Source: Thermanaerosceptrum fracticalcis (GTDB taxonomy: Bacteria > Bacillota > Peptococcia > DRI-13). From it: a DNA stretch of 64,000 nucleotides. The stretch spans positions 3,393,501-3,457,500 of the forward strand of contig NZ_CP045798.1 in assembly GCF_000746025.2 (NCBI RefSeq), written 5' to 3'. The notes beneath the pieces are model-generated. The model was not told where the DNA came from, did no database searches, and saw only the letters and a list, made by a program, of their open reading frames with translations. Both the position numbers and the translations under genes were made by a program. Below are positions 26,995 through 43,831 of the stretch, piece after piece (position 1 is the stretch's first letter; each line of letters starts with the position of its first letter).

Positions 26995-29196
26995 GTGGGG
27001 GTTTCACCAAAAAAGCTTTTTGAAGTACCTGTGAACGACCTTTTAGGGTTCATATTCGCGTTAGTGTCTACGGCGGCTATTTGGCTTTTTTTATTTAAGC
27101 TCCATACCTTCCAGAAGCTTGATATCCAAGACATATTAATTGAGGGGGTCACGCTGTTAATTCTTATTTGCGGATTTGCGTACATAGCGAGGTTACATAT
27201 CAGGTATTTAAAGAGGGGCTGGTTATTAATAGCGCTGGCCCAGCTGGTTAATTTTCTTGATGAATTCACCTCGGAGCCTGAGTTTTTTAATACCACGCTA
27301 GAAGGTATAGTACTGGTAACTGGTCTGGCCCTTGTGGTGAAGGGATTTTCTGTGGCTTACCGGAGTTTACAAGAGGAAAACGGATTGCTGAAAAACTTGC
27401 GCCAGGAGCTCATGCTCACATTCGATGCCAGCCCTGTAGGCTTGATAAAAATCGACGATAAATTCCGTATTGAATACATGAATCTCGCCATGAAAAAAAT
27501 CCTTGGGTTAAAAGAAGACGAAGAACCTGTAACAGTGAGGAGGGATATACGGGAAATCCCCTCTGTTAAGGAGCTTGGGCTGGATGCCCTGTTTGACCGC
27601 AAAGGAGAATGTAAAACGCTCTCCATAGAAACACCTTTCTGGTCGCTTTATGGGAGGGAGTGCTATATATCTGTTGCAGCCAATCCTTTAGTTGAAAAAG
27701 GCAGGTTTTTAGGGGGAATTATTGCAGTTACAGATATCACGGAACGCATAAAAGATGAACAGCGGATATTGTACCTTGAAGGTATTCGACGTTGCATACT
27801 GGAGGTTTTACAGACTATAGTTGTTGAAAAGGATCGAAATAAGTTGTTGGAAAAAGTTTGCGAGACTTTAACCAAAAGCAGGGGGTATATTTTTGCCTGG
27901 TTCGGAACTATTGAAGAAGATAATCGCAGGGTAATGCCGGCAGCATGGTCCGGGGAGGAGAACGGTTACCTCAAGGCTGTAACAATAACATGGGATGAGA
28001 CACAAACAGGCCAGGGTCCCACTGGCAGGGCCATAAAAACCCGAAAACCAGCGGTGGTGAGAAATATTGCTGAAGACCCTTCGTACGAACCATGGCGCAG
28101 TGAGGCAAAAAAGCGGGGCTATGCTTCCGCAGCGGCGGTACCCATAATTTACGAAAACAGGTCTTTCGGGGTTTTGAATATCTATTCTGGCCATCCGGAC
28201 GCATTTCACGAAGAAGAAATTGAGCTCTTGAAAATGCTGGCCACGAGTTTGGCCTACGGGCTGTATAGCCTGGATACGGAAGAGAAGCGCCGTGAAATAG
28301 CCAGGGCGTTGAAAAGGTCGGAAAAACATTACCGGACTTTAGTACAAACTCTTGGTGAAGGTGTGATACTGACGGACTTTGACTTAAATATAAAATACGC
28401 AAATCCTGCTTTTTGTTCTCTTATCGATTGTAAAGAAGAAAACCTGGTTGGCAAAAACCTGCTGAAATTTATAATTGTTTCAGACCAGCCTAAAGTTAAA
28501 AGCCAGGTCAGGGGAGAGGAAAGAGAGAAGGCATCGTGCTGTGAACTGCAAGTTAAAACCTCAAGTGGAGAACTTAAATCCGTTAGAGCTACCTGCACCC
28601 TGATGACGGATGGCGAACAAGAAGAGTCGAAAATACTGTATATATTTGTTGATATAACCGAACTTAAACAGTTGGAAGAAAAACTCAGGAAACGTGCAAT
28701 AATAGATGGGCTTACGGGCCTGTACAACCGCACTTACTTTAATGAGAGAATAAAGGAGGAAGTTGAGCGGGCCAGGCGTTATAATCATCCCCTCTCTTTT
28801 GTGATGGTGGACGTAGATAAATTTAAAGAAATCAATGATTGCTATTCTCATATAGAGGGAGACGAAGTGCTTAAGGAAGTGGCCCGGCAATTGCTGGCAT
28901 CAATCCGCAAGAGCGATATAGCCTTCCGTTATGGTGGCGACGAGTTCCTGCTTGTCCTGCCAGAAACTGATGAAAAAGGAGTTCAAATGGTGGTGCAAAG
29001 GATTTACCAGGAGATTGAAGCTGTTAACGGCGTAAGGGAGAAGGCGCAAAGACCCGGTATATCGCTGAGTATCGGTTGGGCCACGTGGGAAGCGCAGGGG
29101 AATAGTAAATGGCAAGATACCCTTAAGGAGAGCGACATGAAGATGTACCAAGATAAGATGAGAAAGTGTAGTGCGCCCCGAAGTCCTGTGGAGTAA
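26995..29196 (+). CDS. Membrane PAS-GAF-PAS-GGDEF diguanylate cyclase
   Basis: 733-aa sensor with three to four N-terminal membrane helices (about 15-125), a PAS domain (about 135-255), GAF (about 265-430), a second PAS (about 440-555) and GGDEF (about 565-725). The active-site motif is RYGGDEF with an RKSD inhibitory site five residues ahead, so it is a product-inhibited cyclase. GTG 26995 is the first in-frame start; its ribosome site is weak and the best AGGAGG lies about 60 nt earlier, so the start is uncertain. Domain order indicates sensing of a membrane-proximal or small-molecule signal. Confidence 0.9.
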   Translation: MGVSPKKLFEVPVNDLLGFIFALVSTAAIWLFLFKLHTFQKLDIQDILIEGVTLLILICGFAYIARLHIRYLKRGWLLIALAQLVNFLDEFTSEPEFFNTTLEGIVLVTGLALVVKGFSVAYRSLQEENGLLKNLRQELMLTFDASPVGLIKIDDKFRIEYMNLAMKKILGLKEDEEPVTVRRDIREIPSVKELGLDALFDRKGECKTLSIETPFWSLYGRECYISVAANPLVEKGRFLGGIIAVTDITERIKDEQRILYLEGIRRCILEVLQTIVVEKDRNKLLEKVCETLTKSRGYIFAWFGTIEEDNRRVMPAAWSGEENGYLKAVTITWDETQTGQGPTGRAIKTRKPAVVRNIAEDPSYEPWRSEAKKRGYASAAAVPIIYENRSFGVLNIYSGHPDAFHEEEIELLKMLATSLAYGLYSLDTEEKRREIARALKRSEKHYRTLVQTLGEGVILTDFDLNIKYANPAFCSLIDCKEENLVGKNLLKFIIVSDQPKVKSQVRGEEREKASCCELQVKTSSGELKSVRATCTLMTDGEQEESKILYIFVDITELKQLEEKLRKRAIIDGLTGLYNRTYFNERIKEEVERARRYNHPLSFVMVDVDKFKEINDCYSHIEGDEVLKEVARQLLASIRKSDIAFRYGGDEFLLVLPETDEKGVQMVVQRIYQEIEAVNGVREKAQRPGISLSIGWATWEAQGNSKWQDTLKESDMKMYQDKMRKCSAPRSPVE

Positions 29197-29490
29197 GGCA
29201 GCCTAAGGCTGAATGAACCCGAGCTGTGGTGCAAAACTGGAGGTAGCCCGCTATCGCCTGTTTTGCCTCTTCCACAGTGTCATAGATATGCAGTTAAAGA
29301 TAATGTTATGAGTGACAGGTAAGCGGCCGCTCAACAAAAACGAACCGCAGCCGGAGAAAAAAAGCGCCCAAGTGGCCCGTATCAACATAGTATAGGATAG
29401 ATTTTTCATTAAAAAAAGGAGATTGAGCAGAAAAAAGAGAATTACATTAAATTATTTTCAGATTCGCATACCCCTGTGGGAGGATAAGTG

Positions 29491-30381
29491 ATGAAGATTC
29501 TTGTCGCGGAGGACAGTAAATATTATCGAAAGATTCTGGTTGATACCCTGCGTGCCTGGAAGTATGATGTTGTTATAGCTTCTGACGGTATTGAAGCATT
29601 GGAAATCATTAAGCAGGAAGACGGGCCCAGGCTGGCCATTATCAACTGGATTATGCCGGGGCTGGATGGTTTGGAATTATGCAGAAAAGTCAGGGCTTGG
29701 GAGAAAGAGGGCTATGTCTATTTAATTCTTCTTACGGCCAATGCCGGCAAAGAGAATATTGTTAAGGGTCTGGAAGCAGGAGCCGATGATTATATCATCA
29801 AGCCTTTTGACGAAGAGGTTTTAAAATGCCGCCTGAAGATAGGGGAAAGGATAATAAACCTTGAGAACGAGATCAGGCGGTTGGCAAATTTGGACCATCT
29901 CACAGGAGTCCTTAACCGGCGTGCTTTTATGGAGAGGCTGGACAGTGAGATAGCAAGGTGCCAGAGGACCAAAATACCACTGGCTTTAATTATGAGTGAC
30001 ATAGATAATTTTAAGAGCATCAATGACAATTACGGACACCAGACAGGAGACGAGGTTCTTCGTATGGTGGCTGGTAAGACAAAAAATTTGGTAAGAAAAT
30101 ATGATTTTATAGGCCGCTATGGCGGGGAGGAGTTTATCATCTGCACTCCGGGAGCATCTTTATTGACAGCTAAGGAGATAGCAGAAAGGCTGCGGCGGGA
30201 AATTGAGGAATCGGTTATCCCTGTTGAGAAGGGTGCATGTTATATAAAGGTTACGGCCAGTTTCGGGATTAGTTTTCTGGAGGAAGATTCTTCCACTGAT
30301 ATTGATTCGCTGATTAAAAGGGCCGATGATGCCCTGTACTTGGCTAAAAAGCAGGGTAAGAACCAAATCGTTATCAAGTGA
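29491..30381 (+). CDS. Receiver-GGDEF response regulator (PleD/WspR-like)
   Basis: 296-aa protein: receiver domain 1-120 (acidic pair AEDS, phosphoacceptor Asp in IINWIMPGLDGLE, Lys in YIIKPF) joined to GGDEF about 130-295 with RYGGEEF and an RKYD inhibitory site. In IINWIMPGLDG the usual Asp at the strand 3 end appears as Asn, so phosphorylation may be altered. ATG at 29491 follows GGGAGGATAAG. No cognate kinase is adjacent. The preceding 29197-29490 holds no gene. Confidence 0.9.
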   Translation: MKILVAEDSKYYRKILVDTLRAWKYDVVIASDGIEALEIIKQEDGPRLAIINWIMPGLDGLELCRKVRAWEKEGYVYLILLTANAGKENIVKGLEAGADDYIIKPFDEEVLKCRLKIGERIINLENEIRRLANLDHLTGVLNRRAFMERLDSEIARCQRTKIPLALIMSDIDNFKSINDNYGHQTGDEVLRMVAGKTKNLVRKYDFIGRYGGEEFIICTPGASLLTAKEIAERLRREIEESVIPVEKGACYIKVTASFGISFLEEDSSTDIDSLIKRADDALYLAKKQGKNQIVIK

Positions 30382-30489
30382 TGGGGGATAACATATTAGG
30401 TTTATCCTCTTGTTCTATTTTAGCTTTCTTACACCGGGATTACCCGATTAATGACAATGGCAAATTGACAACTTGCTAAAATAAGAATA

Positions 30490-30565
30490 GAGAGACGGTG
30501 TTGAGGACAGGTTGTGGCAGGAGAACCAGCACTTCAGGGCACTTGTTGACTCTACCGATGATATT
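30490..30565 (+). pseudogene. PAS-domain N-terminal fragment
   Basis: The stretch reads WQENQHFRALVDSTDDI and then TAG, the usual entry helix and first strand of a PAS domain. It is probably the lost front of the following GGDEF-EAL gene. Nothing else is seen in 30382-30793. Confidence 0.45.
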
Positions 30566-30793
30566 AAGTAGCGCGTTCTAACGTTGCTTCAATTTCAAGC
30601 CTTCTAGCATGAGTATCCAATGTGGTAAGATGGTATTGGTGATTCACCATAAGGTGCTCTTTTCTGTTAAATTTGGTTGTGTCTTCAACTGCCATTTTTC
30701 CAGATTTGGCGCACCTTTTCAATTTATTTTGATGAATTATAAGCTATATGGGTTCGAAATTCAGGTTTATATGCCAACGATTTAATATTTGCA

Positions 30794-32200
30794 GTGGTGG
30801 TAGACATAGATATGCTTGAACAGTTAAAAAATGAAAGGACAGAAATGGAGAATGAGCTTAAGAAATTGATTATAAAAGATAGCCTAACGGGTTTATACAA
30901 CAAAGCATTTTTTATAGAACAACTGGACAGGTTCATTCAAAAGTCTGACAGGGAAAAGGACCGGTTTGGTTTATTGTTCATTGATTTTAACAAGTTCAAG
31001 GAAATCAACGATACATTAGGCCATCATACGGGGGATAGGGTTATTTTTGAAGCGGCCAGGAGACTGGAGAGTGCTGTCTCTGAAAACTGCCTTCTTGCCA
31101 GGTACGGCGGAGATGAATTTGTGATGCTGGTTTGTGACGTACATTCAAGAGCTGAGCTGTATAATATAGCGAAAGAAATACTGCAAAGCTTTGACAGTGC
31201 ATGTTATATTGATGGACATGAATTTTATTTATCGGCCAGCATCGGCATTGCCCTTTATCCCTTTGACGGAAGAGATTCGGATAACTTGATCAAAAATGCA
31301 GACATTGCCATGTATAAGGCGAAGGAAGATAAAGATGAGGAATATAACATAAGGTTTTTTACATCGGAGATGGAAAAAGAAGTCCAGGAACGGTTTATGA
31401 TTGAAACCCAGTTAAGAAAGGCCCTGGAAAATCAGGAGCTTAGCCTTTGTTTTCAGCCCATTGTCGAAATAAGTAAGAATAAATTAGAAGGGGCAGAAGC
31501 CCTGTTAAGGTGGAAGAATGTAAAACTGGGCTTTGTGCCGCCGGAAAAATTCATTTCCATAGCAGAAGAAACCGGGCTGATCCACAGCATCGGAAAATAT
31601 GTCCTGGAAAATGTGTGTAATTTTATAAAAAGCATGGAGAGGAAAGGACTGCCCCTGATTCCCGTTGCTGTCAATATATCAGCAAAACAGTTGGAAAACA
31701 GGAATTTTGCAGAAACAGTTAAAAGCATCATCGAGTATTATCAGATCGATACAAGATACTTAGAATTTGAAATTACCGAGAGCGTTTCAGCGGGAAACAT
31801 GAAAAGGATAAAGGAAAACATTGAAAAAATAAAGGATTTGGGCATCAAATTATCCATGGATGATTTCGGAACGGGTTATTCCTCCTTTGCCATGCTTTTA
31901 AACCTTCAAATCGATAAATTAAAGATCGATAAAATGTTTATTGATAACATAGGGAAGATGAGGGAAGAAAAAATTATCAGAACCATTCTGTCCATGGCCA
32001 AAGAATTAGGGTTAAAAGTTGTGGCGGAAGGAATTGAAACAGAGAAACAGTTAAAATTCTTAAAAGATGTGAGTTGTGATTACGGGCAGGGCTACCTGTT
32101 TAACAGGCCTATGGATATAAATATGTTTGAAGAGTATTTAAAAATAAGATGCTACAGCAAGGGAAAATCACCGGATAATTTTTCAGGCTCTGTTTGTTGA
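30794..32200 (+). CDS. GGDEF-EAL protein, N-terminus probably truncated
   Basis: 468 aa: GGDEF at about 25-190 (RYGGDEF, inhibitory-site RxxD replaced by SENC) and EAL at about 205-450. EAL catalytic residues are present: EALLRW, VNISAKQL, FEITES, MDDFGTGYSS, KIDK, AEGIETEKQ. Hence likely a c-di-GMP phosphodiesterase, with cyclase activity uncertain. GTG 30794 lacks a good ribosome site, and the codons before it (LIFAVVVDIDML) look like a PAS tail, so the N-terminal sensor seems lost; start may be ATG 30812. Confidence 0.85.
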   Translation: MVVDIDMLEQLKNERTEMENELKKLIIKDSLTGLYNKAFFIEQLDRFIQKSDREKDRFGLLFIDFNKFKEINDTLGHHTGDRVIFEAARRLESAVSENCLLARYGGDEFVMLVCDVHSRAELYNIAKEILQSFDSACYIDGHEFYLSASIGIALYPFDGRDSDNLIKNADIAMYKAKEDKDEEYNIRFFTSEMEKEVQERFMIETQLRKALENQELSLCFQPIVEISKNKLEGAEALLRWKNVKLGFVPPEKFISIAEETGLIHSIGKYVLENVCNFIKSMERKGLPLIPVAVNISAKQLENRNFAETVKSIIEYYQIDTRYLEFEITESVSAGNMKRIKENIEKIKDLGIKLSMDDFGTGYSSFAMLLNLQIDKLKIDKMFIDNIGKMREEKIIRTILSMAKELGLKVVAEGIETEKQLKFLKDVSCDYGQGYLFNRPMDINMFEEYLKIRCYSKGKSPDNFSGSVC

Positions 32201-32263: not shown

Positions 32264-33130
32264 TTAAAGGTTTTTGACGAATTCTATAAACACCTGAGAT
32301 GCTTTGGATAAATATTTATCTTTCTTCCAGGCAAGCCCAATTTCGATGAAAAGAGGTTCAGATAATGGAAGGCTTATAACGTCAGCACTTTTACGAGCGA
32401 TTACATCAAGTAAGAAGGAAATACCAACTCCTTTTGCCACTAAACCTCGTATTGTTTCTATCTGGCTGGAAGAGAGGATGATGTTAGGTGTAAACTTATT
32501 TTTTGAACATTCTTCCATGATAATCTGACGGTGATACGTATCCTCCTTCAGTAAGATAAATGATTCACCGCGTAGTTGGAAAAAGGGTACAGAGGAACAA
32601 TGGACTAAGGGGTGATTGGGGGGCAGGCATAAAAGAATCTCCCCTTTGGTTATCGGTAATGTTTCTAATAACGGCGAAGGGTGCGAAATAATGACAATGC
32701 CAAGGTCAAGCTCTCCTTTTTCAAGGAGTTTCCTAATAGCTATAGAGCCCTCTTCGATTATACATAATTCTAAATGGGGATATAGTGTCTTAAAGTTGGC
32801 GAATATTTCCGGAAAAAGGAATGAGCCAATCATAGGCGGTATCCCTATTTTTATTGAGCCTTTTTGAAGGTCTCTATAGTCATTCATTTCTAGCATAGCA
32901 TCTTGGATGCTGCGCAGGATATTTTCAACGCGTTGCAAAAAGACTTGGCCTTCTGCCGTTAGAGTAATCTGTTTTTGGCTACGGTCAAAGAGCGTGACAC
33001 CCAACTCATCCTCTAGCTTCTGGATAGCTATTGTGATAGAGGGCTGGGTAACATGTAAACGTTCCGCGGCCCTTGTGATATTGTTTAAACGGCTGACCAT
33101 CTGAAAGTATTCAAGCTGGCGTAGTTCCAT
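32264..33130 (-). CDS. LysR-family transcriptional regulator
   Basis: 288-aa LysR regulator: helix-turn-helix 1-60 (NITRAAERLHVTQPSITIAIQ), effector domain about 90-285. The start ATG at 33130 has GGAGG-like sequence upstream on the minus strand. It lies convergent to the GGDEF-EAL gene and divergent from the riboswitch leader. No obvious target operon is adjacent, so its ligand is unassigned. Confidence 0.9.
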   Translation of the reverse strand: MELRQLEYFQMVSRLNNITRAAERLHVTQPSITIAIQKLEDELGVTLFDRSQKQITLTAEGQVFLQRVENILRSIQDAMLEMNDYRDLQKGSIKIGIPPMIGSFLFPEIFANFKTLYPHLELCIIEEGSIAIRKLLEKGELDLGIVIISHPSPLLETLPITKGEILLCLPPNHPLVHCSSVPFFQLRGESFILLKEDTYHRQIIMEECSKNKFTPNIILSSSQIETIRGLVAKGVGISFLLDVIARKSADVISLPLSEPLFIEIGLAWKKDKYLSKASQVFIEFVKNL

Positions 33131-33383
33131 AGAAAACCTCCGAAGAATAGTTTTAAACTATTATAACACAGAAAATCTATATTTTTATTTTATGCAATCA
33201 GGGATTATACTCGTATTTTTGACACATCCTGTTGCTAAAAGGAGGAAAAACTAATTTTTTGTAGAATATTGTAGAATAATTGAAGCAGGTAACTCGGACA
33301 TCAAACTAACAATTTTATTTGTAACAGCGAAGTGGTAAGAAACGATTTGACAGACATCTAATGCAGTTTCTTTTCAAGCATAA

Positions 33384-33476
33384 ACCGATAAAGGTAAACC
33401 TATCGAAAGGTAGGGGCACAAAGCCAAGGACCTAAGGCTTTATATAGAGCTATGGTAGCCGGTTGCCGAAGGAGAT
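33384..33476 (+). ncRNA. GEMM-I cyclic-di-GMP riboswitch 1
   Basis: GGTAAACC..TCGAAAGG (GNRA tetraloop arm), then GGCACAAAGCCAAGGACCTAAGG and a closing GCCGGTTGCCGAAGG (33460-33473) follow the GEMM-I layout of two helices docked by a GAAA loop. Aligned to the Vibrio Vc2 aptamer from memory, the base equivalent to G20 is G and A47 is kept, indicating c-di-GMP rather than cGAMP. A TTGACA box lies at 33347-33352. The region 33131-33383 has no gene. A weak hairpin (about 33531-33599) between the two aptamers could be its own platform. Confidence 0.82.
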
Positions 33477-33616
33477 GTTATTTTTTTCTATGGATTCTTA
33501 CCTAATCAGAATTTCCCATAAAAAGATCTACAAAGGGTTGAACTTTTCACTAGCTGAAAAAAATGCATGCACCAGTAGTGTTAAATCAGCCCTTTAACTT
33601 TTAATTATTAAAATTT

Positions 33617-33710
33617 ATTGTGCTAAAGGCAAACCATCCGAAAGGTTGGGACGCAAAGCCATGGGTCTGTAGCCCTTGAGGTATGACTGCCAGGTTGCCG
33701 CAATCAAGGT
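33617..33710 (+). ncRNA. GEMM-I cyclic-di-GMP riboswitch 2
   Basis: Closer to consensus than the first: GGCAAACCATCCGAAAGG, GGGACGCAAAGCCATGGGTC and TGCCAGGTTGCCGCAATC (last part 33687-33704), with GC-AAT able to close a basal stem with ATTG. G20 and A47 equivalents are retained. It is on the same strand as riboswitch 1, about 140 nt later, and 33 nt ahead of an intrinsic terminator. Confidence 0.9.
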
Positions 33711-33742
33711 TCACTATTTATTTTAAAATAATGTTCTCTATT

Positions 33743-33768
33743 ACGGCAGCTACTTGGCTGCCGTTTTT
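33743..33768 (+). terminator. Riboswitch-linked intrinsic terminator
   Basis: ACGGCAG (33743-33749) and CTGCCGT (33757-33763) form a 7-bp stem followed by TTTTTGC. It sits between riboswitch 2 and the first codon of the downstream operon and is the likely expression platform. Confidence 0.75.
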
Positions 33769-33799
33769 GCTTAATAAGTAAATCTACCCGCAAATACTC

Positions 33800-34111
33800 A
33801 TGGAAGGGGGCGACAATAAAGGAATACGAGGGGCTGAGGGGGCAAAAGCGCTGGAAGAAGTTTATCAGGGTGCCGGTTCCCAGTTCGACCCGAAGATGGT
33901 AGCGGCTTTGGCGGAAGAGCCCTTTTGGCAAATCGCTACATACCGCGACCCGGCCAGGCTGGAAAGGCAGATAGAAGAGGAAAAGCAATGGCTTGTACAA
34001 TTGGCGGATTTGTTACATCCGCTGGTATACGCCCAGAGCCAATGGCTGTACCGTTTGCTGGTAATATTGTGGCAATTGAAAGAAAATGCAGCCGGCAGGG
34101 CTGACAGGTAG
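33800..34111 (+). CDS. Small protein with an HD-GYP C-terminal tail
   Basis: 103-aa ORF, first after the riboswitches. Residues about 15-40 (ALEEVYQGAGSQFDPKMVAAL) match the last helix and QFDP motif of HD-GYP phosphodiesterases; the catalytic HD and GYP parts are missing. The remainder is a charged helical stretch with no known family. No convincing ribosome site precedes ATG 33800. It may be a relic or a small adaptor retaining that fold element. Confidence 0.5.
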   Translation: MEGGDNKGIRGAEGAKALEEVYQGAGSQFDPKMVAALAEEPFWQIATYRDPARLERQIEEEKQWLVQLADLLHPLVYAQSQWLYRLLVILWQLKENAAGRADR

Positions 34112-34126
34112 AAAGGTGGTGAAAAA

Positions 34127-35389
34127 ATGCGACGGTGTCTTGAATGTGCAAAGAAAGAACCAGACTGTCCTTGTTTAGAGTGCAAGTATTTTATTCAGCA
34201 GGGCCCCCTTCGTCGGGTGCCTTCGCCACCTATCAGAATATTACTGGAAGATGAGCAGGGCAAGAAGTATCCGGCAGACATTCTGGCGTTAAATACCACG
34301 GAATTTGGGCTGCAAACGGAAGCTCCCGTTCCGGGTCGGTACGTAATTAAGCTACAGGAAAGTCTGTGGGTCGAGGTTGCCGGAGTACCATTCAAGGGGA
34401 AAAATAACGTCCATGTGTTTGACATCCTCTGTGTACATCGGAGGCAGGAGACTGCCAGCCGCCTTAACAACGAGGAGTACCAATTGCTGATCGGAAGCAA
34501 TGGGGAATTAGTGGCAGAGATTTCTCGACATTTACCGGAGCACCTTCAGGACTTGGTCAGGGAGAAATTATTGGCTGAATTGGAGAAATCCGAATTAATT
34601 AGCGCTCTCAGGGTAGGGAAGGTGCTGAAATATGAAGGTGGGCGCTTCCGCTACCTTTCAGGTCAGGCCGACCTGGACCTGCCTATGGAAGAAGCGGAGA
34701 AGCTGATGCGTCAGGCCACCCGACATGCTGAACACCGGCGCGAGGTAATTATTAGCGCTAACGGCCAAAAGGTATTCGACCTTCATGGGGTACCGTTCGA
34801 CCACAGGAGCGGTGGACTGTTAGCCTTCGATATCACAGAGGTGATTGAAAAGGAAAGAAAGATTCACCGTCAGGAGATGGAGGCTTACCGGGAGGCTATA
34901 TCGGCGGTAACGGGAGGCCGGCTACACCTGGTGAACGGTGAAGAGGCGAAAAGGTTGCTATCAGAAGGAGTGGAAATAGCAAAAGGTGAGGCCAGGCAAG
35001 CCCATGACATTCCAGAAGCCCGCCGGGCCCTGCGGGGATCTCTGCCTGGTATAGATAGTCGGAGGCAGCACGCGATTGTCTTGTGCTTTTCAGAGGCACT
35101 AACCAACGCTCTCAAACATGCAGGGGGCGGTTGCTGGCAAGTTAGACGGGTTGGGGATGCTGTTAGGATTATCGTGCAGGATCGGGGCCCGGGAATCAAA
35201 ACCAGTGAATTGGCCCGGGCCACGCTGATGCAGCATTATTCTACCAAGAATTCCATGGGGTGTGGATTTACCTTGATGCTTTACTACGCGGACTACCTTT
35301 ATCTTAATACAGGACCGTCAGGTACCACTTTGGCCCTTGATTTTGGCAATGTGCTCACAGATAAGTTAAACATTGAAAAAACTGACTGA
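34127..35389 (+). CDS. PAS-linked RsbT/RsbW-type serine kinase (anti-sigma family ATPase)
   Basis: 420-aa protein. The N-terminus carries a cysteine cluster (C4, C7, C14, C16, C19), followed by about 100 residues of beta-rich unknown sequence and a PAS-like segment at about 120-250. A GHKL ATPase of the switch-kinase type closes it at about 310-410, with N box EALTNALKHA, DRGPGI and GCGFTLMLYYAD. It probably phosphorylates the STAS proteins next to it. AAAGGTGGTG precedes the ATG. The Cys cluster could bind zinc or an Fe-S centre as an input. Confidence 0.82.
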   Translation: MRRCLECAKKEPDCPCLECKYFIQQGPLRRVPSPPIRILLEDEQGKKYPADILALNTTEFGLQTEAPVPGRYVIKLQESLWVEVAGVPFKGKNNVHVFDILCVHRRQETASRLNNEEYQLLIGSNGELVAEISRHLPEHLQDLVREKLLAELEKSELISALRVGKVLKYEGGRFRYLSGQADLDLPMEEAEKLMRQATRHAEHRREVIISANGQKVFDLHGVPFDHRSGGLLAFDITEVIEKERKIHRQEMEAYREAISAVTGGRLHLVNGEEAKRLLSEGVEIAKGEARQAHDIPEARRALRGSLPGIDSRRQHAIVLCFSEALTNALKHAGGGCWQVRRVGDAVRIIVQDRGPGIKTSELARATLMQHYSTKNSMGCGFTLMLYYADYLYLNTGPSGTTLALDFGNVLTDKLNIEKTD

Positions 35390-35404
35390 AAGAAGGTGAT
35401 GTTA

Positions 35405-35725
35405 TTGCTGAAAGTAGCGGTAGATGCTGTTCCGGGGGTACGCCGGGTAATGCTAAACGGCGAATTAGATATGGAAACAGTATCGCTTTTGCACGAGGTT
35501 GTTAGGGAAGGGGATGAACACACACTGGAACTTGACCTCTCGGGGTTGTCTTTTGTTGATTCAACTGGTCTGAAAGGTTTGCTGGACATCAACAACAACT
35601 GGCAGCAAAAAGGTGGCCAGTTGTTAATTTTACATCCGCAACCCGATGTAGCGGAAGTGATGCGGCTGGTAGGTCTGGACAGGCTCCTGGCACAAAACGG
35701 CGCTCTGGCTGGAGAAGAGAGGTAG
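35405..35725 (+). CDS. STAS-domain anti-sigma factor antagonist (1)
   Basis: 106-aa single STAS domain. The phosphorylatable serine is in FVDSTGLKGLL. TTG 35405 is preferred because AGAAGGTGA lies 7-8 nt upstream; ATG 35399 would be too close. It follows the kinase gene by 15 nt and precedes the phosphatase gene, the classic partner-switching order. Its binding partner is probably the upstream kinase. Confidence 0.88.
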   Translation: MLKVAVDAVPGVRRVMLNGELDMETVSLLHEVVREGDEHTLELDLSGLSFVDSTGLKGLLDINNNWQQKGGQLLILHPQPDVAEVMRLVGLDRLLAQNGALAGEER

Positions 35726-35732
35726 GAATGGG

Positions 35733-36458
35733 ATGAGAGAAGTGGTTGAAGAAAATGGGAAAATCCTAAGGGGCTACGGATTGGAAGGTAGTGGCTGCAG
35801 CCTGCCAGCCGGACAAGAGGGTGGAGATTTTTTTGAATTTATCTCCTGCAACGAAGGCAGCGTGTTTATCGTGATCGGGGATGTAATGGGTAAAGGATTC
35901 CAGGCGGCGCGGCAGATGGAAGCAATCCGCCAATTGGTCAGGGAGTGTATTAGGATCAACCCCCATCCCCTGGAAGTAGTGCGCCGGTTAAACAAGCTGG
36001 GAGGATATGAACTACGAAAATGTGGCTCTTTTGCCACCCTTTGCCTGTTGTGTTATGACGGAATAACTGGCCGCCTTACCTGCGTCAATGCAGGACACCA
36101 CCCCCCCCTCCTTCTATCTAATGGTCAAGTGAGGGTAGTACAGTGCTGGGGAGTCGCTATAGGCCTTTTGGAGGATTATCTTGGGTCAGGGGCAGAGGAA
36201 TTTTTTCTTGCCGACGGAGATGCGGTAGTGCTGTACACCGATGGACTAGTTGAAGCCTGCGGCCCTGGCGAACAGAGGTACGGACAAGAACGATTGAAGA
36301 GAGTAGTACGTTTGCAGAATGGCGCTGATGCTGAGTGCATGAAAGAAAACATTTTGGCTGATTTGGATACATTTACTCGCGGGATTTCTCAAAAGGATGA
36401 CGTGACCCTGGTTGTTATGAAAGTAACGCGAAAGGCGGGTGATATGGGTGGAGATTAG
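35733..36458 (+). CDS. SpoIIE/RsbU-type PP2C serine phosphatase
   Basis: 241-aa stand-alone phosphatase domain with all metal-binding aspartates: GGDFFEF, GDVMGKG, YTDGLVEA and DDVTLVV. It should dephosphorylate a STAS antagonist. No sensor domain is attached, so its input may be its expression level, which is riboswitch-controlled in this operon. Its stop overlaps the next STAS gene. Confidence 0.92.
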   Translation: MREVVEENGKILRGYGLEGSGCSLPAGQEGGDFFEFISCNEGSVFIVIGDVMGKGFQAARQMEAIRQLVRECIRINPHPLEVVRRLNKLGGYELRKCGSFATLCLLCYDGITGRLTCVNAGHHPPLLLSNGQVRVVQCWGVAIGLLEDYLGSGAEEFFLADGDAVVLYTDGLVEACGPGEQRYGQERLKRVVRLQNGADAECMKENILADLDTFTRGISQKDDVTLVVMKVTRKAGDMGGD

Positions 36459-36759
36459 AGTCCGGCAAGAGAAGGGGATGGCATCCCTGGAAGTTGAAGG
36501 TGAACTGGATTTTAGCAATGTGGAACTGTTGCAACGGGAAATTCAGCGCCTCCCGGAGGAAGTGGTGGAGGTAGATCTGCAAGGACTTCAGTTTATAGAC
36601 TCTTCAGGGGTGGGTATGCTTCTGAGCCAGGCCAGAATTTTCTACAAGCAGGGCCGCACCCTGAGAATTGTTCGCATACCCAGTCATATTCAAGAAGACC
36701 TGGAAGTGATAGGTTTTTTCCGAGTGCTTGAAGTACTAGAGACAAAGCCCAACGCTTAA
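36439..36759 (+). CDS. STAS-domain anti-sigma factor antagonist (2)
   Basis: 106-aa STAS domain from GTG 36439 (GTG 36448 is an alternative with better ribosome spacing). The phosphorylation site is FIDSSGVGMLL. The gene overlaps the phosphatase gene by 20 nt. Two different antagonists on either side of one phosphatase suggest either two kinases or a branched switch; only one kinase is encoded here. Confidence 0.88.
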   Translation: MIWVEIRVRQEKGMASLEVEGELDFSNVELLQREIQRLPEEVVEVDLQGLQFIDSSGVGMLLSQARIFYKQGRTLRIVRIPSHIQEDLEVIGFFRVLEVLETKPNA

Positions 36760-36776
36760 CAGGAGGTGAGGTTCTA

Positions 36777-38633
36777 ATGAAGGAAGAGGCTAATCAGGGC
36801 TCCCTAGCCATAACAGCGAGTGGAACCGATAATGCTTGTCCGGACGGGGAAGTGAACAGTTCGTATGCATTTATGAAAGAGGGGTGCCTTGTTGTCCAGT
36901 ACCAGCCGGAGGGACCCTACCCAGTGGTGATTCCTTGCCCGGGGGTAAGACTGATTGTGAACGGCCAGGAGCGCACTCAACCCACCCCCGTATCTATGCA
37001 GGATACGGTGCGGGTGGATGCGGTGAATGAACGAAGAGAAGGGGAATGGTCTGTTACCATTTCTTCTGATGGTTTACAAGCAATACTGCGGATTCGCCCA
37101 ACTGTAGTAATTCACCGGGAGGTGGCGGAACTCCCGGCTGCCAGTAAACTGCAACTGGCGGTAGTGGAGCGGGAAGAACGTCTTCCACCCCTTACATGGC
37201 ACGAATTATTGCAGGAGTTGTCCCGGCTGGGTATTAAATATGGGGTAGACTGGGAAGCATGCTCTCGTGGTGTTACATCCTGTGCTGAAGAGGAGGTGGT
37301 TATTGCCCGGGGAATCCCTGCGGAACCAGGAAAAGACGGCCGGGTGGAATTGCTTTTTCCTTCCGATTCCAAACTGCCTGTACTGGCAGAGGAAGAGGAA
37401 ACGGTGGATTTCCGAAAACGGTATGTTTTTACTTCGGTAGTGGAGGGGGAAATCTTAGCTGTCAAACACTTGCCGGGGCTGGGTCGTCCTGGTACCAGCG
37501 TTAAAGGAGAAGTAATTGTACCGCCCGCGCCCCGGGATTTTATCCTTTCTGCAGGTGAAGGAGCGGTGCTCACTAGGGATGGTGAACGGGCCGTAGCGGC
37601 CCGGGCTGGACGTCCTGTGGCTTTCCGCCAGGCCAACTTGGTGAGGGTAAGTGTATTACCTGAACTAGTACATACGGGTAATGTGGATCTTGCTTCCGGA
37701 AACATTTCCTTTAAAGGTGATGTGGTAATTGCCGGTAATGTGGAAGAAGGAATGACGGTAGAAGCGGGCGGAAATGTTAGGGTAGGTGGGTTAGTCTCTG
37801 GGGCGAGAATTCAAGCAACAGGATCTATCCTGATCAGGGGAAATATTCTGGCATCGGCAGTAACCGCAGGAGGAACTCCTGACTTTATGCAAGAAATCCT
37901 TCCACAGGTTCGCGCTTTAGCAATTGGTTTGCGAGAGATGATCATGGCTATCTATCAGCTACTTGGTCACCCAGCATTCAAACAAGGTGATCTCAAACGC
38001 GGTATCGGTCCTTTGTTAAGATTGCTGTTGGAGGGGAAGTTTCGGCATCTTCCTGCTGCTGCAGAAGTCTTCAAGAAGCAAGTTGAAACTCTTCCATCAG
38101 GATTAGCCGGTGAAGGCCTGGACGAGTTTATTAAGGAAGTCGAACGGGTAGTGGTTCACTCCCCTTTGATGGTACGTAACCTTCAGGAGGTAGAAAAACT
38201 AGCCCAACGAGCTTCGGAATGGGAACAAGCCTTTGTGTCTCCGCCGTCTGCGGAAAGTGATGTGGTAGTGTCAAATATCCTCAATTCCACCGTTATAGCA
38301 AGCGGTGATGTCAGGGTGGTGGGTGGCGGTTGTTATAATTCGCGAATTCATGCTGGTAAAAAAGTGACTGTAGCCGGGGTATTTCGCGGGGGTGAGATTC
38401 AGGCTGGGGAAGATGTGCATGTGGGAGAACTGGGATCCAGAGGCGGGTCTATTACTAAGGTGGTGGCTGGCCCAAGAGCTATGGTTACCGTAAAATACGC
38501 CTTTGAGAATGCTTTGGTATTGGTGGGTGGCCGGGTTTATCGTTTTGATAGGAAGGAAAAAGATGTCAGATTGTGGTTGGATAAAGAAGGGAATCTGAGA
38601 TCCTGCGTAATGTCAAGGGGACGGTTCTGTTAA
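36777..38633 (+). CDS. FapA/DUF342 family polymer-scaffold protein
   Basis: 618-aa protein with the DUF342 (FapA) layout: variable N-terminal half, then repeated beta-helix turns from about 290 (GNVDLASGNISFKGDVVIAG, GNVRVGGLVSGARIQA) interrupted by a helical insert, and a second set of turns near 500-580 (GDVRVVGGGCYNSRIHAGK). FapA proteins bind or organise envelope or flagellar components and influence sporulation kinases in some Firmicutes. AACAGGAGGTG precedes the ATG. It ends the riboswitch operon and is the probable structural output gene; no flagellar gene is adjacent. Confidence 0.85.
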   Translation: MKEEANQGSLAITASGTDNACPDGEVNSSYAFMKEGCLVVQYQPEGPYPVVIPCPGVRLIVNGQERTQPTPVSMQDTVRVDAVNERREGEWSVTISSDGLQAILRIRPTVVIHREVAELPAASKLQLAVVEREERLPPLTWHELLQELSRLGIKYGVDWEACSRGVTSCAEEEVVIARGIPAEPGKDGRVELLFPSDSKLPVLAEEEETVDFRKRYVFTSVVEGEILAVKHLPGLGRPGTSVKGEVIVPPAPRDFILSAGEGAVLTRDGERAVAARAGRPVAFRQANLVRVSVLPELVHTGNVDLASGNISFKGDVVIAGNVEEGMTVEAGGNVRVGGLVSGARIQATGSILIRGNILASAVTAGGTPDFMQEILPQVRALAIGLREMIMAIYQLLGHPAFKQGDLKRGIGPLLRLLLEGKFRHLPAAAEVFKKQVETLPSGLAGEGLDEFIKEVERVVVHSPLMVRNLQEVEKLAQRASEWEQAFVSPPSAESDVVVSNILNSTVIASGDVRVVGGGCYNSRIHAGKKVTVAGVFRGGEIQAGEDVHVGELGSRGGSITKVVAGPRAMVTVKYAFENALVLVGGRVYRFDRKEKDVRLWLDKEGNLRSCVMSRGRFC

Positions 38634-39600: not shown

Positions 39601-39823
39601 AAAAAATCAAGGGCACGATAAATGTTTTTTACTCCGATATGCATAAATAGCGGTGTAAGAGTAAGAATAAATATTCAGCAAGGGCGATACGAAACTTTTA
39701 GACCAGATACATTATCGCCGCTGCTATCTGTAAATGCGTTTCTTCTAAAATTCGCTGGATATTCGCAGCCGGCATAATGGTGGCTGAAGAAAATCCAGGT
39801 TAGGTTCAGGGGAAGTGAAACCG

Positions 39824-40927
39824 ATGCGGGAGGAAGGAAAAATTTCAGCCTACCAGGCTATGGTATATCAGGTGAGCATTGTTTTGGCTACAGCCATCTT
39901 GTTCGTCCCGGCTATTACAACAAAGCATGCAAAGCAGGATGCCTGGCTATCCGTAATCATAGCCTGTTTTTTTGGTAGTCTTCAGGTTTATACAGCCGTC
40001 AGCCTGGCCCGGCGTTTTCCGAATGCGTCGGTTGTGCAGTATGCACCACTCATTCTCGGTAAGGTGCCGGGCAAGGTGGTGGGATTTGTTTATCTCTTCT
40101 ATTTCTTCTACGTTGGTTATTTCATATTGCAAGAATTTGCCGCCCTGATGTCCTCCTCCTATATGCCGCGTACGCCTTCTGTTGTTTTTATGCTTGTTCT
40201 TTCTCTGCTTGCTGCTTATGCGGCTTATGGCGGGCTTGAGGTGATCTGCCGAACGAGTTCTATTGTTTTGACGGTTGCAATGGCAACGCTGGTATTAACA
40301 GAAGCCTTAATTGTCAAAGATATTAAAATATGGAACTTCTTACCTGTTCTGGAGAACGGGTTTAACCCAGTATTACTGGGAGCAATTTCACCAGGTGCAT
40401 GGTTTGGGGAAACCGCCGTGATCCTGATGCTCTACCCATTTATAAATAATAAAGAAAAAGTGGTTAAGACCAGCCTCCTGGCCATTCTAACCCTTTTTAT
40501 AGCCATGGAGGTGGTAGTTACCGGAGCAATTGGACTACTCGGCCCGACGGAAACAGCCTCTTTTCTTTTCCCCACCTTCAATATGGCCCGTCGGATTAAA
40601 TTAGAGGCGCTACCGTTTTTGGAACGGCTGGATGCTCTTTTCATGATGGTCTGGGTGGCGGCTATGCTGATTAAGTTAACCACTTTCTTTTTCGCCGGGG
40701 TGCTTGCCCTGTCGCAGTGGCTCAACGTCAAAGACTATCGTCCGTTAATCTTACCCTCCATGGCCATAATGATGGCGCTGGCGGTACAGGCATGGAAGAA
40801 TATTACCGAGTTATTCGCTTTTTCCGGAGAAGTATTCCCCATAACCATTATCTTTGTCAATTTTATAATCACCATTTTTCTTTTAATCATCGCCGGCATT
40901 CGCAATATTTCCACCAGGAAAACATGA
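39824..40927 (+). CDS. gerAB: Spore germination permease, GerAB family
   Basis: 367-aa polytopic (about ten helices) APC-fold protein of the GerAB/GerKB family, the ligand-binding subunit of a nutrient germinant receptor in the spore inner membrane. It starts EGKISAYQAMVYQVSIVLAT, typical of the family. ATG 39824 has AGGGGA at a suitable distance; GTG 39815 is an alternative. Next come GerAA and GerAC; together a complete receptor. Confidence 0.93.
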   Translation: MREEGKISAYQAMVYQVSIVLATAILFVPAITTKHAKQDAWLSVIIACFFGSLQVYTAVSLARRFPNASVVQYAPLILGKVPGKVVGFVYLFYFFYVGYFILQEFAALMSSSYMPRTPSVVFMLVLSLLAAYAAYGGLEVICRTSSIVLTVAMATLVLTEALIVKDIKIWNFLPVLENGFNPVLLGAISPGAWFGETAVILMLYPFINNKEKVVKTSLLAILTLFIAMEVVVTGAIGLLGPTETASFLFPTFNMARRIKLEALPFLERLDALFMMVWVAAMLIKLTTFFFAGVLALSQWLNVKDYRPLILPSMAIMMALAVQAWKNITELFAFSGEVFPITIIFVNFIITIFLLIIAGIRNISTRKT

Positions 40928-40970
40928 CCATTACTTGTGGCACTATAATAAAAAGGAAGGTGTTTTTTCT

Positions 40971-42620
40971 GTGCGAAAGCGTATTGTAAAAAAGCTGCAC
41001 CATTTGATCGGGAATTATGCATGTAAGACCACAGGAAAAAACACCTGCCCGGATGACATGGACTGGCTTCATCAAACTACTGTGGAAAAGTACGATCTGG
41101 AGCGTATTCCCATCGAGGCGGACCTGGCGACCAACATTAAGCGCCTGAAGGAAATATCCGGTGTTTGTCCTGATTTTATTATCCGGCAGTTTGAAATAGG
41201 AGGCGGCATCGCGGAAGCAGCGGTAATTTTCCTGGAGGGTATGGTAGAACGGGTGCTTTTAAACGAAAACCTGCTCAAACCATTAATGATCTATTACAGG
41301 CCACTTAAATCAGCGCAGGGTTCCTTCCTGGAGCAAATTTTACGTGTTGCCCTTCCCGTGGACGTGGTCAGAAAGTGCGTCAACCTGCACGACGTAATGG
41401 ATCATGTTCTGGAAGGCTCTGTTGTTCTTTTAGTGGATGGTGAATCAAGGGGCCTGGCGCTGGAAGCCGCCGGGTTTAAAACCCGTGTTCCGGAAGAACC
41501 GATGACAGAAGCGGTGGTACGGGGGTCTCGTGAGGGATTTACCGAAGCTATACATACCAATATTACCCTTCTGCGACGGCGGCTCAAGACGCCAAACCTG
41601 ATACTGGAAAACATGGTCCTCGGCCGGATCAGCCACTCGCAGGTTGTGGTGGGATACGTCAGGGGCCTGGCTGCGCCGGAACTGGTTGCCGAAGTCAGGG
41701 AGAGGCTTCAGCGTATCGATATCGACGGTATTCTTGAATCAAATTACCTGGAGGAAATGCTGCGGGATCATCCTCTTTCCTTTTTCCCGCAGGCCATTAC
41801 TACCGAACGGCCGGACCGGGTGGCAGCCAACCTGCTTGAAGGACGGGTAGCCATACTCACTGAAAACACACCTCATGTCCTCATTTTGCCAGGTGAATTT
41901 GTAGCCCACATGCAGAGCCCGGAGGATTTTTACCACCACTTTGTCCTGGGCGTTTCTATTCGCCTTTTGCGCTGGAGCGCTTTCGCCGTTTCCCTTCTCC
42001 TCCCGTCCGTGTATGTGGCTGTGACCACCTTCCATCAGGAAATGATTCCCACCAGGCTTCTTTTAAGCATCGTTGCCGCACGTGAGGGAGTACCTTTCCC
42101 TGCCGTGGTGGAAGCACTGGTGATGGAAATTGCCTTCGAAATTTTAAGGGAAGCCGGTGTGCGTCTGCCCCGGGCGGTAGGTCAGGCAGTAAGCATTGTC
42201 GGGGCGCTGGTAATTGGTGAAGCAGCGGTAATGGCAGGTGTAGTATCGCCGCTGATGGTAATTGTGGTGGCCTTAACAGGGATTTCCTCCTTTCTCTCAC
42301 CTTCCTTTGATCTGGCCATTTCCATCCGCATTTTGCGCTTTCCAATGATGTTCCTGGCCGGCTTGCTAGGCCTTTTCGGCGTGGCCGCGGGAGTGCTTGC
42401 CATCTTGATCCATTTCGCCGGGATGCGTTCCTTTGGATTACCGTACCTGGCCGGATTAACCCCTTTTCACCCTGACGACTGGAAAGATGTTTTTATCAGA
42501 GCGCCGATATGGATGATGCGCAGGCGGCCCACAGAACTTTCCAAAAGCAACCGGAAACGGCAGGTGCCCGGTCTTAAGCCTGAACCGCCAGACCGGCACC
42601 CGCAGGGGGGAACAACATGA
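40971..42620 (+). CDS. gerAA: Spore germination receptor subunit GerAA family
   Basis: 549-aa GerA-type subunit. A soluble N-terminal domain (about 1-300) is followed by four to five membrane helices (FAVSLLLPSVYVAVTTFHQE; GQAVSIVGALVIGEAAV; the conserved PRAVG and FLSPSFDL). GTG 40971 with AAAAGGAAGG 10 nt upstream is preferred to the earlier in-frame start at 40935. The stop overlaps gerAC by 4 nt (ATGA). Confidence 0.95.
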   Translation: MRKRIVKKLHHLIGNYACKTTGKNTCPDDMDWLHQTTVEKYDLERIPIEADLATNIKRLKEISGVCPDFIIRQFEIGGGIAEAAVIFLEGMVERVLLNENLLKPLMIYYRPLKSAQGSFLEQILRVALPVDVVRKCVNLHDVMDHVLEGSVVLLVDGESRGLALEAAGFKTRVPEEPMTEAVVRGSREGFTEAIHTNITLLRRRLKTPNLILENMVLGRISHSQVVVGYVRGLAAPELVAEVRERLQRIDIDGILESNYLEEMLRDHPLSFFPQAITTERPDRVAANLLEGRVAILTENTPHVLILPGEFVAHMQSPEDFYHHFVLGVSIRLLRWSAFAVSLLLPSVYVAVTTFHQEMIPTRLLLSIVAAREGVPFPAVVEALVMEIAFEILREAGVRLPRAVGQAVSIVGALVIGEAAVMAGVVSPLMVIVVALTGISSFLSPSFDLAISIRILRFPMMFLAGLLGLFGVAAGVLAILIHFAGMRSFGLPYLAGLTPFHPDDWKDVFIRAPIWMMRRRPTELSKSNRKRQVPGLKPEPPDRHPQGGTT

Positions 42621-43831
42621 AATGCCGCATCAGGTTGATTATACTGGTTTTACTTATTTGCTTAACCGCCGGTTGCTGGGACATGCGGGAAGTAGAGGTT
42701 CTCGGTTATGTTATGGCTATGGCCATCGATAGGGGCCCTCAGGAGCAAATCCGGATCATTGCCCAGGTACCTAATCCGCGTGTACTTGGAGGTGGAGAGC
42801 GGGGAGGAGTTACACCCGGGGCCAGTATTGCTGCCAAGCCTTACCGCAACTATGAGGGAACCGGCCCCACCGTTTTTGATGCACTGCGGGAGATTTCCCA
42901 TGAATCATCCCGGCGGCTGTTTTTTGCCCAGAATCGTACCCTTATCTTCAGTAAAACAATGGCTGAAAAAGGTGTGTATGATGTACTCGACTTTTTAAAA
43001 CGCAGCGTAGAGATCCGGCGTGGTTTAACAATGGTCTTCGTTGCCCGCGGAGAACCGGTAAAAATACTTGATACTCCTAACCCCCATGCTATTTTACCGG
43101 CGCTCCGTATAGATGACATCGTACGCTGGCGAGGACAAACTTCCAGGTTTGCACCTGTTCCTCTATCACGGTTTCTGGAAGCTCTTAGCCTGGAAGGACA
43201 GGAACCTTATGCAGGTGTAATCGAAGTGGCTTCTAACCCTACGGCACAAGTCAAGGAGGGTGAAAAGGCAGCTCCCGAACCGTCCTCAACCATCCGGCTT
43301 ACCGGGGCCGCCCTCTTCCGCAATGACCGTATGGTGGGGTTTCTCGATGAAACCGAAACTCGCGGACTTTTGTGGGTACTCAACGAGGTAAGAGGAGGGC
43401 AAATTGTTTTCCCTTGCCCCGGCCAGGAGGGTAAAAAGGTTACCATAGAAATTATACGTGCCAATGCTAAGATTGAACCGGAAATAACAGAAGATGGAAT
43501 TATTATGACGGTAAAAATCCAGGAAGAAGGTAACCTTGTTGAAGTGGAAGGCCCCCTTGATGTCTCTAAACCGGAAGTAATTAAAGAACTGGACCGTTTG
43601 CACGCTGCAGCTATCGGTAATGAAGTAAAGACTGCCGTGTACAAAGCACAGGAATTGGGCTCCGATGCCTTCGGTTTCGGAGAAGCGTTTCGACGTAAAT
43701 TCCCCCGGGAATGGAAGAAAATTAAGAAAGACTGGCCGGAAATTTTTCCGGGCATAGAGGTACGTGTCCAGGTAGTTGCCCACATTCGACGTATAGGAAT
43801 GGTTGGCAAGCCACCGCTTTTGACTCATTAA
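42617..43831 (+). CDS. gerAC: Spore germination lipoprotein GerAC family
   Basis: 404-aa Ger(x)C family lipoprotein with signal peptide ending LTAGCWD, lipidated at the Cys, the third germinant receptor subunit on the outer face of the inner membrane. VMAMAIDRG and the C-terminal FGFGEAFRRKFPREWKKI block are typical. Translationally coupled to gerAA. Confidence 0.95.
   Translation: MKCRIRLIILVLLICLTAGCWDMREVEVLGYVMAMAIDRGPQEQIRIIAQVPNPRVLGGGERGGVTPGASIAAKPYRNYEGTGPTVFDALREISHESSRRLFFAQNRTLIFSKTMAEKGVYDVLDFLKRSVEIRRGLTMVFVARGEPVKILDTPNPHAILPALRIDDIVRWRGQTSRFAPVPLSRFLEALSLEGQEPYAGVIEVASNPTAQVKEGEKAAPEPSSTIRLTGAALFRNDRMVGFLDETETRGLLWVLNEVRGGQIVFPCPGQEGKKVTIEIIRANAKIEPEITEDGIIMTVKIQEEGNLVEVEGPLDVSKPEVIKELDRLHAAAIGNEVKTAVYKAQELGSDAFGFGEAFRRKFPREWKKIKKDWPEIFPGIEVRVQVVAHIRRIGMVGKPPLLTH

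Follow-up and report, generated by a model that had tools for sequence, protein, structure and literature searches.

A 64,000-nucleotide stretch of the Thermanaerosceptrum fracticalcis genome (NZ_CP045798.1, positions 3,393,501 to 3,457,500; hereafter the window) contains an operon in which two GEMM-I riboswitch aptamers for cyclic di-GMP (c-di-GMP) and an intrinsic terminator precede genes for a serine kinase, two STAS proteins, a PP2C-type phosphatase and a FapA/DUF342 protein. We consider it probable that these genes form a partner-switching relay whose expression is governed by c-di-GMP, the explanation that best fits the arrangement; that c-di-GMP-I aptamers control the operon is in itself very likely. 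The original prediction, made from the sequence, had proposed GEMM-I control of a partner-switching module, and the aptamers, the protein domains and the recurrence of the unit in relatives support it. The unit is widespread, conserved and apparently a new combination of known parts, with the following features:

33383–33470, + strand: GEMM-I aptamer 1 (c-di-GMP-I); RF01051, 81.3 bits (gathering score 35), E 2e-14; G20, A47 and C92 present
33619–33703, + strand: GEMM-I aptamer 2 (c-di-GMP-I-GGC subfamily), the type common to relatives; RF03167, 71.5 bits (gathering score 59)
33693–33700, + strand: predicted antiterminator strand GGUUGCCG within aptamer 2 (P3/P1 3' strand); 8 bp with 33744–33751
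33743–33764, + strand: intrinsic terminator ACGGCAGCTACTTGGCTGCCGT with a T run after it; relatives have stems of the same family
33800–34111, + strand: 103-aa remnant of the first gene, located after the terminator and before the kinase gene; HD-GYP part lost, Spo0E-like tail
34127–35389, + strand: sensor serine kinase with a Cys4 N-terminus, a PilZ-like barrel, a PAS-like region and a SpoIIAB/RsbW-type ATPase (Pfam HATPase_c_2)
35396–35725, + strand: STAS protein 1, DSTG phospho-site (Pfam STAS)
35733–36458, + strand: PP2C/SpoIIE-type phosphatase (PF07228, E 6.8e-42), metal-site motifs conserved
36439–36759, + strand: STAS protein 2, DSSG phospho-site (Pfam STAS)
36777–38633, + strand: FapA/DUF342 protein, 618 aa (FapA_N, E 3e-34; FapA, E 2e-32)

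Two GEMM-I aptamers in series had been proposed together with a covariance-model search, and in that search exactly two Rfam matches were found in the 64-kb window, both of them GEMM-I (c-di-GMP-I) aptamers above their gathering scores. Aptamer 2 also scores 74 bits with RF01051 and 91 bits with a covariance model of the operon's aptamers (R1). Across 22 aptamers from the operon and its relatives, G20, A47 and the 3' CC containing C92 are invariant (Rfam position 11 is numbered as Vc2 G20; G11, A38 and C81 of Bc1 equal G20, A47 and C92 of Vc2, PMC11218506). Stems P2 and P3 covary, with 10 pairs changed on both sides, 91.7% of cells paired and 0 of 500 shuffles as good. The original prediction had also listed 3',3'-cyclic GMP–AMP (3',3'-cGAMP) among the ligands to be probed. 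GEMM-I variants that bind it exist, tandems among them (PMC6456294), but its admission requires the G20A change (PMC7288161), and both aptamers carry G at position 20 and not the A of cGAMP-type GEMM-Ib, which makes cGAMP sensing very improbable here. With G20 in both aptamers, c-di-GMP is the expected ligand of each.

All five proteins exceed the curated Pfam cut-offs, so that the identities first assigned to them (kinase, STAS, PP2C, STAS, FapA) were confirmed throughout, and the gaps of 6, 7, −20 and 17 nt between consecutive genes from kinase to FapA fit a single operon. The kinase belongs to the SpoIIAB/RsbW type of GHKL proteins and has no HisKA domain; its N, G1 and G2 box residues are conserved, and in the PDB a profile built from 26 kinases hits SpoIIAB at 1e-10 and RsbW at 2e-5. 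The kinases share, without exception, four Cys residues near the N-terminus and the key residues of the ATPase boxes. The phospho-sites are likewise kept across relatives, as DSTG in STAS1 and as DSSG or DSTG in STAS2, and so are the phosphatase motifs GGD, DVMGKG, YTDG and DD(V/I). Judged from these sequences, it is highly likely that kinase, STAS proteins and phosphatase would form a phosphorylation cycle. The module had been described as complete, which holds for kinase, antagonists and phosphatase but not for a sigma factor, as none is encoded in the operon.

Comparison of the full-length kinase model with the PDB was swamped by kinase cores, and its N-terminal domain was therefore modelled apart. 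Residues 28–112 form a predicted barrel (AlphaFold2 (AF2) pLDDT 92) whose top PDB fold matches are PilZ domains, a match that is weak by E-value (probability 1.00, TM about 0.6, E 0.03). A PilZ-like fold of the kinase N-terminus is likely on this modelling. Pfam gave no PilZ match in the N-terminus, and with regard to the c-di-GMP-binding motifs of PilZ domains, RxxxR is absent and (D/N)xSxxG is only loosely kept, as NTTEFG. Because these motifs are missing, the domain is not claimed as a c-di-GMP receptor.

A kinase search over 398 genomes of the phylum gave a match at 1e-15 in 44, and more than 20 of these, from several families, carry near full-length homologues at 49–84% identity. Close homologues (79–84%) lie in distant families and none in the rest of the window's class, a distribution that suggests horizontal transfer; plasmid carriage was rejected as the cause of the patchy spread, with no match in 72,556 plasmid records. 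The conserved gene order is first gene, kinase, STAS, PP2C, STAS, FapA. When 39 sources were scanned with the covariance model of the operon's aptamers and the loci with enough upstream sequence were counted, a GEMM stood directly upstream in 21 of 25 loci (the window, L006, L045, L046, L048, L049, L052–L065 and L075), or in about 11 of 14 genera. Among held-out kinase loci, 8 of 9 had a GEMM and the remaining one (L082) is cut off by a contig edge; with L077 left out as the same contig as L006, the held-out tally is 7/7 new testable loci. Combined, a GEMM-I aptamer lies directly upstream of 28 of the 32 operon loci in the phylum that could be tested. With genomes holding about 8.3 GEMMs each, chance alone would place one there at 0.22% of loci, and while the loci are not independent of one another, the margin over chance is overwhelming all the same.

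The terminator predicted ahead of the genes is present as a 9-pair stem with a U tail. The original prediction had been made without a polarity, and an OFF switch is judged most likely here. The 5' strand of the terminator, CGGCAGCU (33744–33751), is complementary over 8 bp to the aptamer-2 strand GGUUGCCG; in folding, a transcript ending at 33751 has the antiterminator as its minimum free energy state (−37.2 kcal/mol), and forcing aptamer 2 lets the terminator form. Such complementarity, again between the 3' strand of the aptamer and the 5' strand of the terminator, is also seen in relatives whose terminators are of the GGCAGC type, reaching 11 contiguous pairs in L053, and in most of these relatives the duplex exceeds dinucleotide shuffles (p 0.03 or less). 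Since the antiterminator strand lies inside the closed aptamer, aptamer and antiterminator would be mutually exclusive, which predicts an OFF switch; from the sequence, we strongly favour this polarity, with the operon made at low c-di-GMP. Switches of the opposite sign are known, as GEMM-I ON switches include pilM in Geobacter (PMC9262584), and pilA1 expression in Clostridioides difficile is raised by a c-di-GMP riboswitch (PMC8653836). An ON switch, in which c-di-GMP binding would block termination and the operon would be made at high c-di-GMP, is unlikely here, as the strand that pairs with the terminator 5' half sits in the closed aptamer, which would exclude the antiterminator and not the terminator.

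We hypothesize that at low c-di-GMP the 3' strand of aptamer 2 would be free to pair with the terminator 5' strand, allowing read-through into the genes for the kinase, the two STAS proteins, the phosphatase and FapA, and that at high c-di-GMP the aptamer would close, the terminator would form and the operon would be off. An identical 8-nt strand occurs in aptamer 1, which could likewise keep the terminator from forming, so that full shut-off may need both aptamers to be occupied. Once made, the kinase (SpoIIAB/RsbW type, with a Cys4/PilZ-like/PAS sensor part) would phosphorylate the STAS proteins and the SpoIIE-type phosphatase would reverse this; the phosphorylation state would then select the STAS partner, probably FapA or an unlinked protein. 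In relatives, an HD-GYP–Spo0E fusion would lower c-di-GMP further and so act as a latch, and it may also bear on the sporulation phosphorelay; its gene is broken in the window genome.

This first gene had been overlooked in the original gene list, which was right for the other five. What is left of it is the stub at 33800–34111, which is 72% identical to the C-terminal part of an intact 261-aa HD-GYP–Spo0E protein of L006; deletion has removed the HD-GYP part together with the original start codon, and the HD and HHExxxGxGY motifs are gone. The stub matches Spo0E (PF09388) weakly, with 18 bits (cut-off 23), E 0.003 and SQWLY in place of SQWLD. An independent Spo0E-like Spo0A phosphatase was rejected as a reading of this open reading frame (ORF), since it is the tail of the truncated fusion gene. 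In L005, 98% identical to the window, the first gene is frameshifted. The L006 protein combines an HD-GYP-type HD domain (PF13487, E 6e-27; HHERWDGKGYE) with a C-terminal Spo0E-like domain (PF09388, 31.6 bits), and this fusion, its Spo0E-like domain above the Pfam cut-off, recurs in L045, L046, L047, L056 and L059, which makes six relatives in all. The HD and HHExxxGxGY motifs are present in L006, L045, L046, L056, L057 and others, with GYE, GYA or GYV instead of GYP. The Spo0E-like tail was found in 17 of the 398 genomes (12 genera); other HD-GYP genes occupy the first place in L050, L051, L052 and L064, and a REC-PAS-HD-GYP-HATPase fusion in L074 (5541–7454), ahead of STAS-PP2C-STAS-FapA, joins phosphodiesterase and kinase domain in one chain. 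No mention of HD-GYP together with Spo0E was found in the literature searched, mostly papers outside subscription. With such a fusion as the ancestral first gene, the unit would once have been a feedback loop on c-di-GMP, now interrupted in this genome; the stub here and the frameshift in L005 indicate that the feedback arm was lost in this genus and the switch kept.

Several observations weigh against the c-di-GMP-controlled relay as we propose it. Four loci (L047, L050, L051 and L074) keep the operon without a GEMM. For the full-length leader, the folded energies of terminator and antiterminator are only 0.2 kcal/mol apart; the window's own aptamer–terminator complementarity is not above dinucleotide shuffles (p 0.165), and the core antiterminator pairs scarcely vary and so yield no compensatory proof. 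In Desulforamulus putei (L008 7201–9831), only aptamer 1 and FapA are left, aptamer 2, the terminator and the relay genes having been deleted, with remnants of HD-GYP and STAS2 where the ends meet, and FapA can thus be kept without the relay. This deletion, together with the broken first gene in the window and in L005, is also what would be expected if the leader were a relic of decaying regulation, the HD-GYP gene having been lost and the operon being transcribed independently of c-di-GMP; Bacillus thuringiensis Bc1 offers a precedent, as an aptamer whose downstream genes ignored c-di-GMP (PMC11218506). In the window, however, nothing is missing from the two aptamers, the terminator or the five switch genes, and the aptamer scores greatly exceed the family cut-offs; we regard such decay as improbable.

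A FapA-like scaffold had been named as the output of the relay; in that form this was not supported, and what speaks for it is conserved gene linkage, on which basis FapA as the output of the partner switch has a little under an even chance. The linkage of FapA, STAS, PP2C and kinase persists even in the distant loci L066–L070, where the order is rearranged, kinase identity falls to 35–40% and no GEMM lies directly upstream, and this argues against a partner switch aimed at an unlinked protein (a sigma factor or the sporulation machinery) with FapA merely co-expressed. An unlinked target nevertheless agrees with the operon's want of a sigma factor, with a kinase and STAS proteins nearest to the SpoIIAB/SpoIIAA/RsbW types, and with Spo0A in the genome and a Spo0E-like domain in the ancestral first gene; it is a serious but somewhat doubtful alternative. 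The host genome encodes flagellins as well as Spo0A. A second host FapA gene, at 976 kb, scores higher and has no GEMM in its neighbourhood.

Of the known systems, Cd1 of the C. difficile flagellar operon is likewise a GEMM-I transcriptional OFF switch, as predicted for the window, but has a single aptamer and controls flagellar genes and not a phosphorylation relay (PMC9262584). Several GEMM-I units in one leader are found in the tandem and triple c-di-GMP-I riboswitches surveyed in PMC12452182, where a natural triple tandem is cited; the Bacillota tandems tabulated there precede a transglutaminase-like gene (yebA), while the relatives of the window mostly have one aptamer. The encoded proteins resemble SpoIIAB–SpoIIAA–SpoIIE and RsbW–RsbV–RsbU in the GHKL serine kinase, the DS(S/T)G STAS antagonist and the SpoIIE/PP2C phosphatase, and differ in the N-terminal Cys4/PilZ-like/PAS-like sensor part of the kinase, the two STAS proteins, FapA in the operon in place of a sigma factor, and the GEMM-I leader. 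The FapA/DUF342 protein shares FapA_N and FapA domains with flagellar assembly protein A, a likeness of family membership only. HsbR–HsbA–HsbD of Pseudomonas aeruginosa is also a partner switch wired to c-di-GMP (PMC6482189), but there c-di-GMP synthesis by the diguanylate cyclase HsbD is the output, whereas in the window c-di-GMP would be the input, through RNA. RmdB, a phosphodiesterase acting on a sigma factor, is another link between c-di-GMP and partner switching (PMC13232838). The claim that no c-di-GMP riboswitch over a partner-switching module had been described holds in so far as none was found in the literature searched.

Early sporulation in C. difficile is repressed by c-di-GMP, but no sporulation-related gene appears to be under one of that species' c-di-GMP riboswitches (PMC8653836). 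A riboswitch over SpoIIAB/SpoIIAA/SpoIIE-like proteins, often with an HD-GYP–Spo0E lead gene, would give a concrete and testable route from c-di-GMP to sporulation. It would add phosphorylation relays to the targets of GEMM-I RNAs and give the FapA/DUF342 family a candidate regulator, and the window genome would serve as a natural variant that has the switch but no longer the feedback gene.

Steep or two-input responses had been named as something that tandem GEMM-I units can give. The tandem arrangement here is a lineage-specific addition and not part of the core: the majority of relatives carry only one aptamer, which is of the aptamer-2 type, and the window has aptamer 1 in common with L005 and D. 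putei (L008). A tandem leader in L080 (2895–3210) has an unrelated first aptamer (44 bits), preceded by a strong promoter-like sequence, TTGACA-18-TATACT; because this aptamer differs from aptamer 1 of the window, tandems arose at least twice, in separate lineages. A clear terminator and antiterminator are found only at aptamer 2, and aptamer 1 is followed by a U-tract without a strong hairpin; aptamer 1 as its own terminator (a short P1, then the U-tract) was considered and set aside as possible but weak. When the whole tandem leader was folded, the terminator 5' strand paired preferentially with the 8-nt strand in aptamer 1 (P 0.90) and hardly with the identical copy in aptamer 2 (0.02), which suggests that either free aptamer could hold the terminator open. 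The further features of the leader are:

33347–33352, + strand: TTGACA ahead of aptamer 1, a candidate −35 box by consensus match only, with a weak −10
33461–33468, + strand: GGUUGCCG in aptamer 1, which may be a second antiterminator strand, seen in whole-leader folding only
33532–33595, + strand: hairpin between the aptamers; comparable hairpin-forming sequence lies upstream of the aptamer in relatives

TTGACA lies at an equal distance upstream of aptamer 1 in D. putei L008. A sigma-70 promoter scan gave no strong site, and the number of sites equalled that in shuffles. Because relatives have aptamer 2 without a partner aptamer, a promoter located between the two aptamers is possible. The relatives with a comparable hairpin upstream of the aptamer are L005, L006, L045, L046, L053, L064 and L080, some of them without aptamer 1.

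A poly-G tract of 11–22 G occurs in the operon regulatory region of 18 loci (L045, L046, L052, L056–L062, L064, L075, L082–L085, L006 at 4162 and L008 at 7541), often right after GAACATATGTTC, which is LexA-box-like; it is absent from the window. The tract varies in length between close relatives and, on its sequence, looks like a phase-variation tract. In genomes G274, G342 and G226 it is the sole run of at least 11 G, and in G297 and G250 further runs of at least 11 G lie a few hundred bp upstream of other GEMMs. A far more ambitious reading would make the unit a mobile decision module, in which c-di-GMP is read by both the OFF riboswitch and the PilZ-like kinase fold, HD-GYP–Spo0E feedback lowers c-di-GMP and dephosphorylates Spo0A, FapA is the output, and poly-G phase variation acts in many relatives, together setting the choice between motile or vegetative and sporulating states. 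We consider this whole unlikely to be correct.

Just upstream of the operon, at 26995–32200 of the window, lie three consecutive GGDEF or GGDEF-EAL genes, read from the sequence as c-di-GMP enzymes, and between them and the operon is a divergent LysR-type gene (32264–33130). Downstream of FapA, at 39815–43831, three genes resemble by eye a GerAB-GerAA-GerAC spore germination operon. The host has two other GEMM-I aptamers (L001 1501–1589 and L004 1501–1587): inspected by eye, one precedes a short ORF and a transposase-like ORF, and the other, which is degenerate (38 bits), is followed by CheW-like and chemoreceptor-like ORFs.

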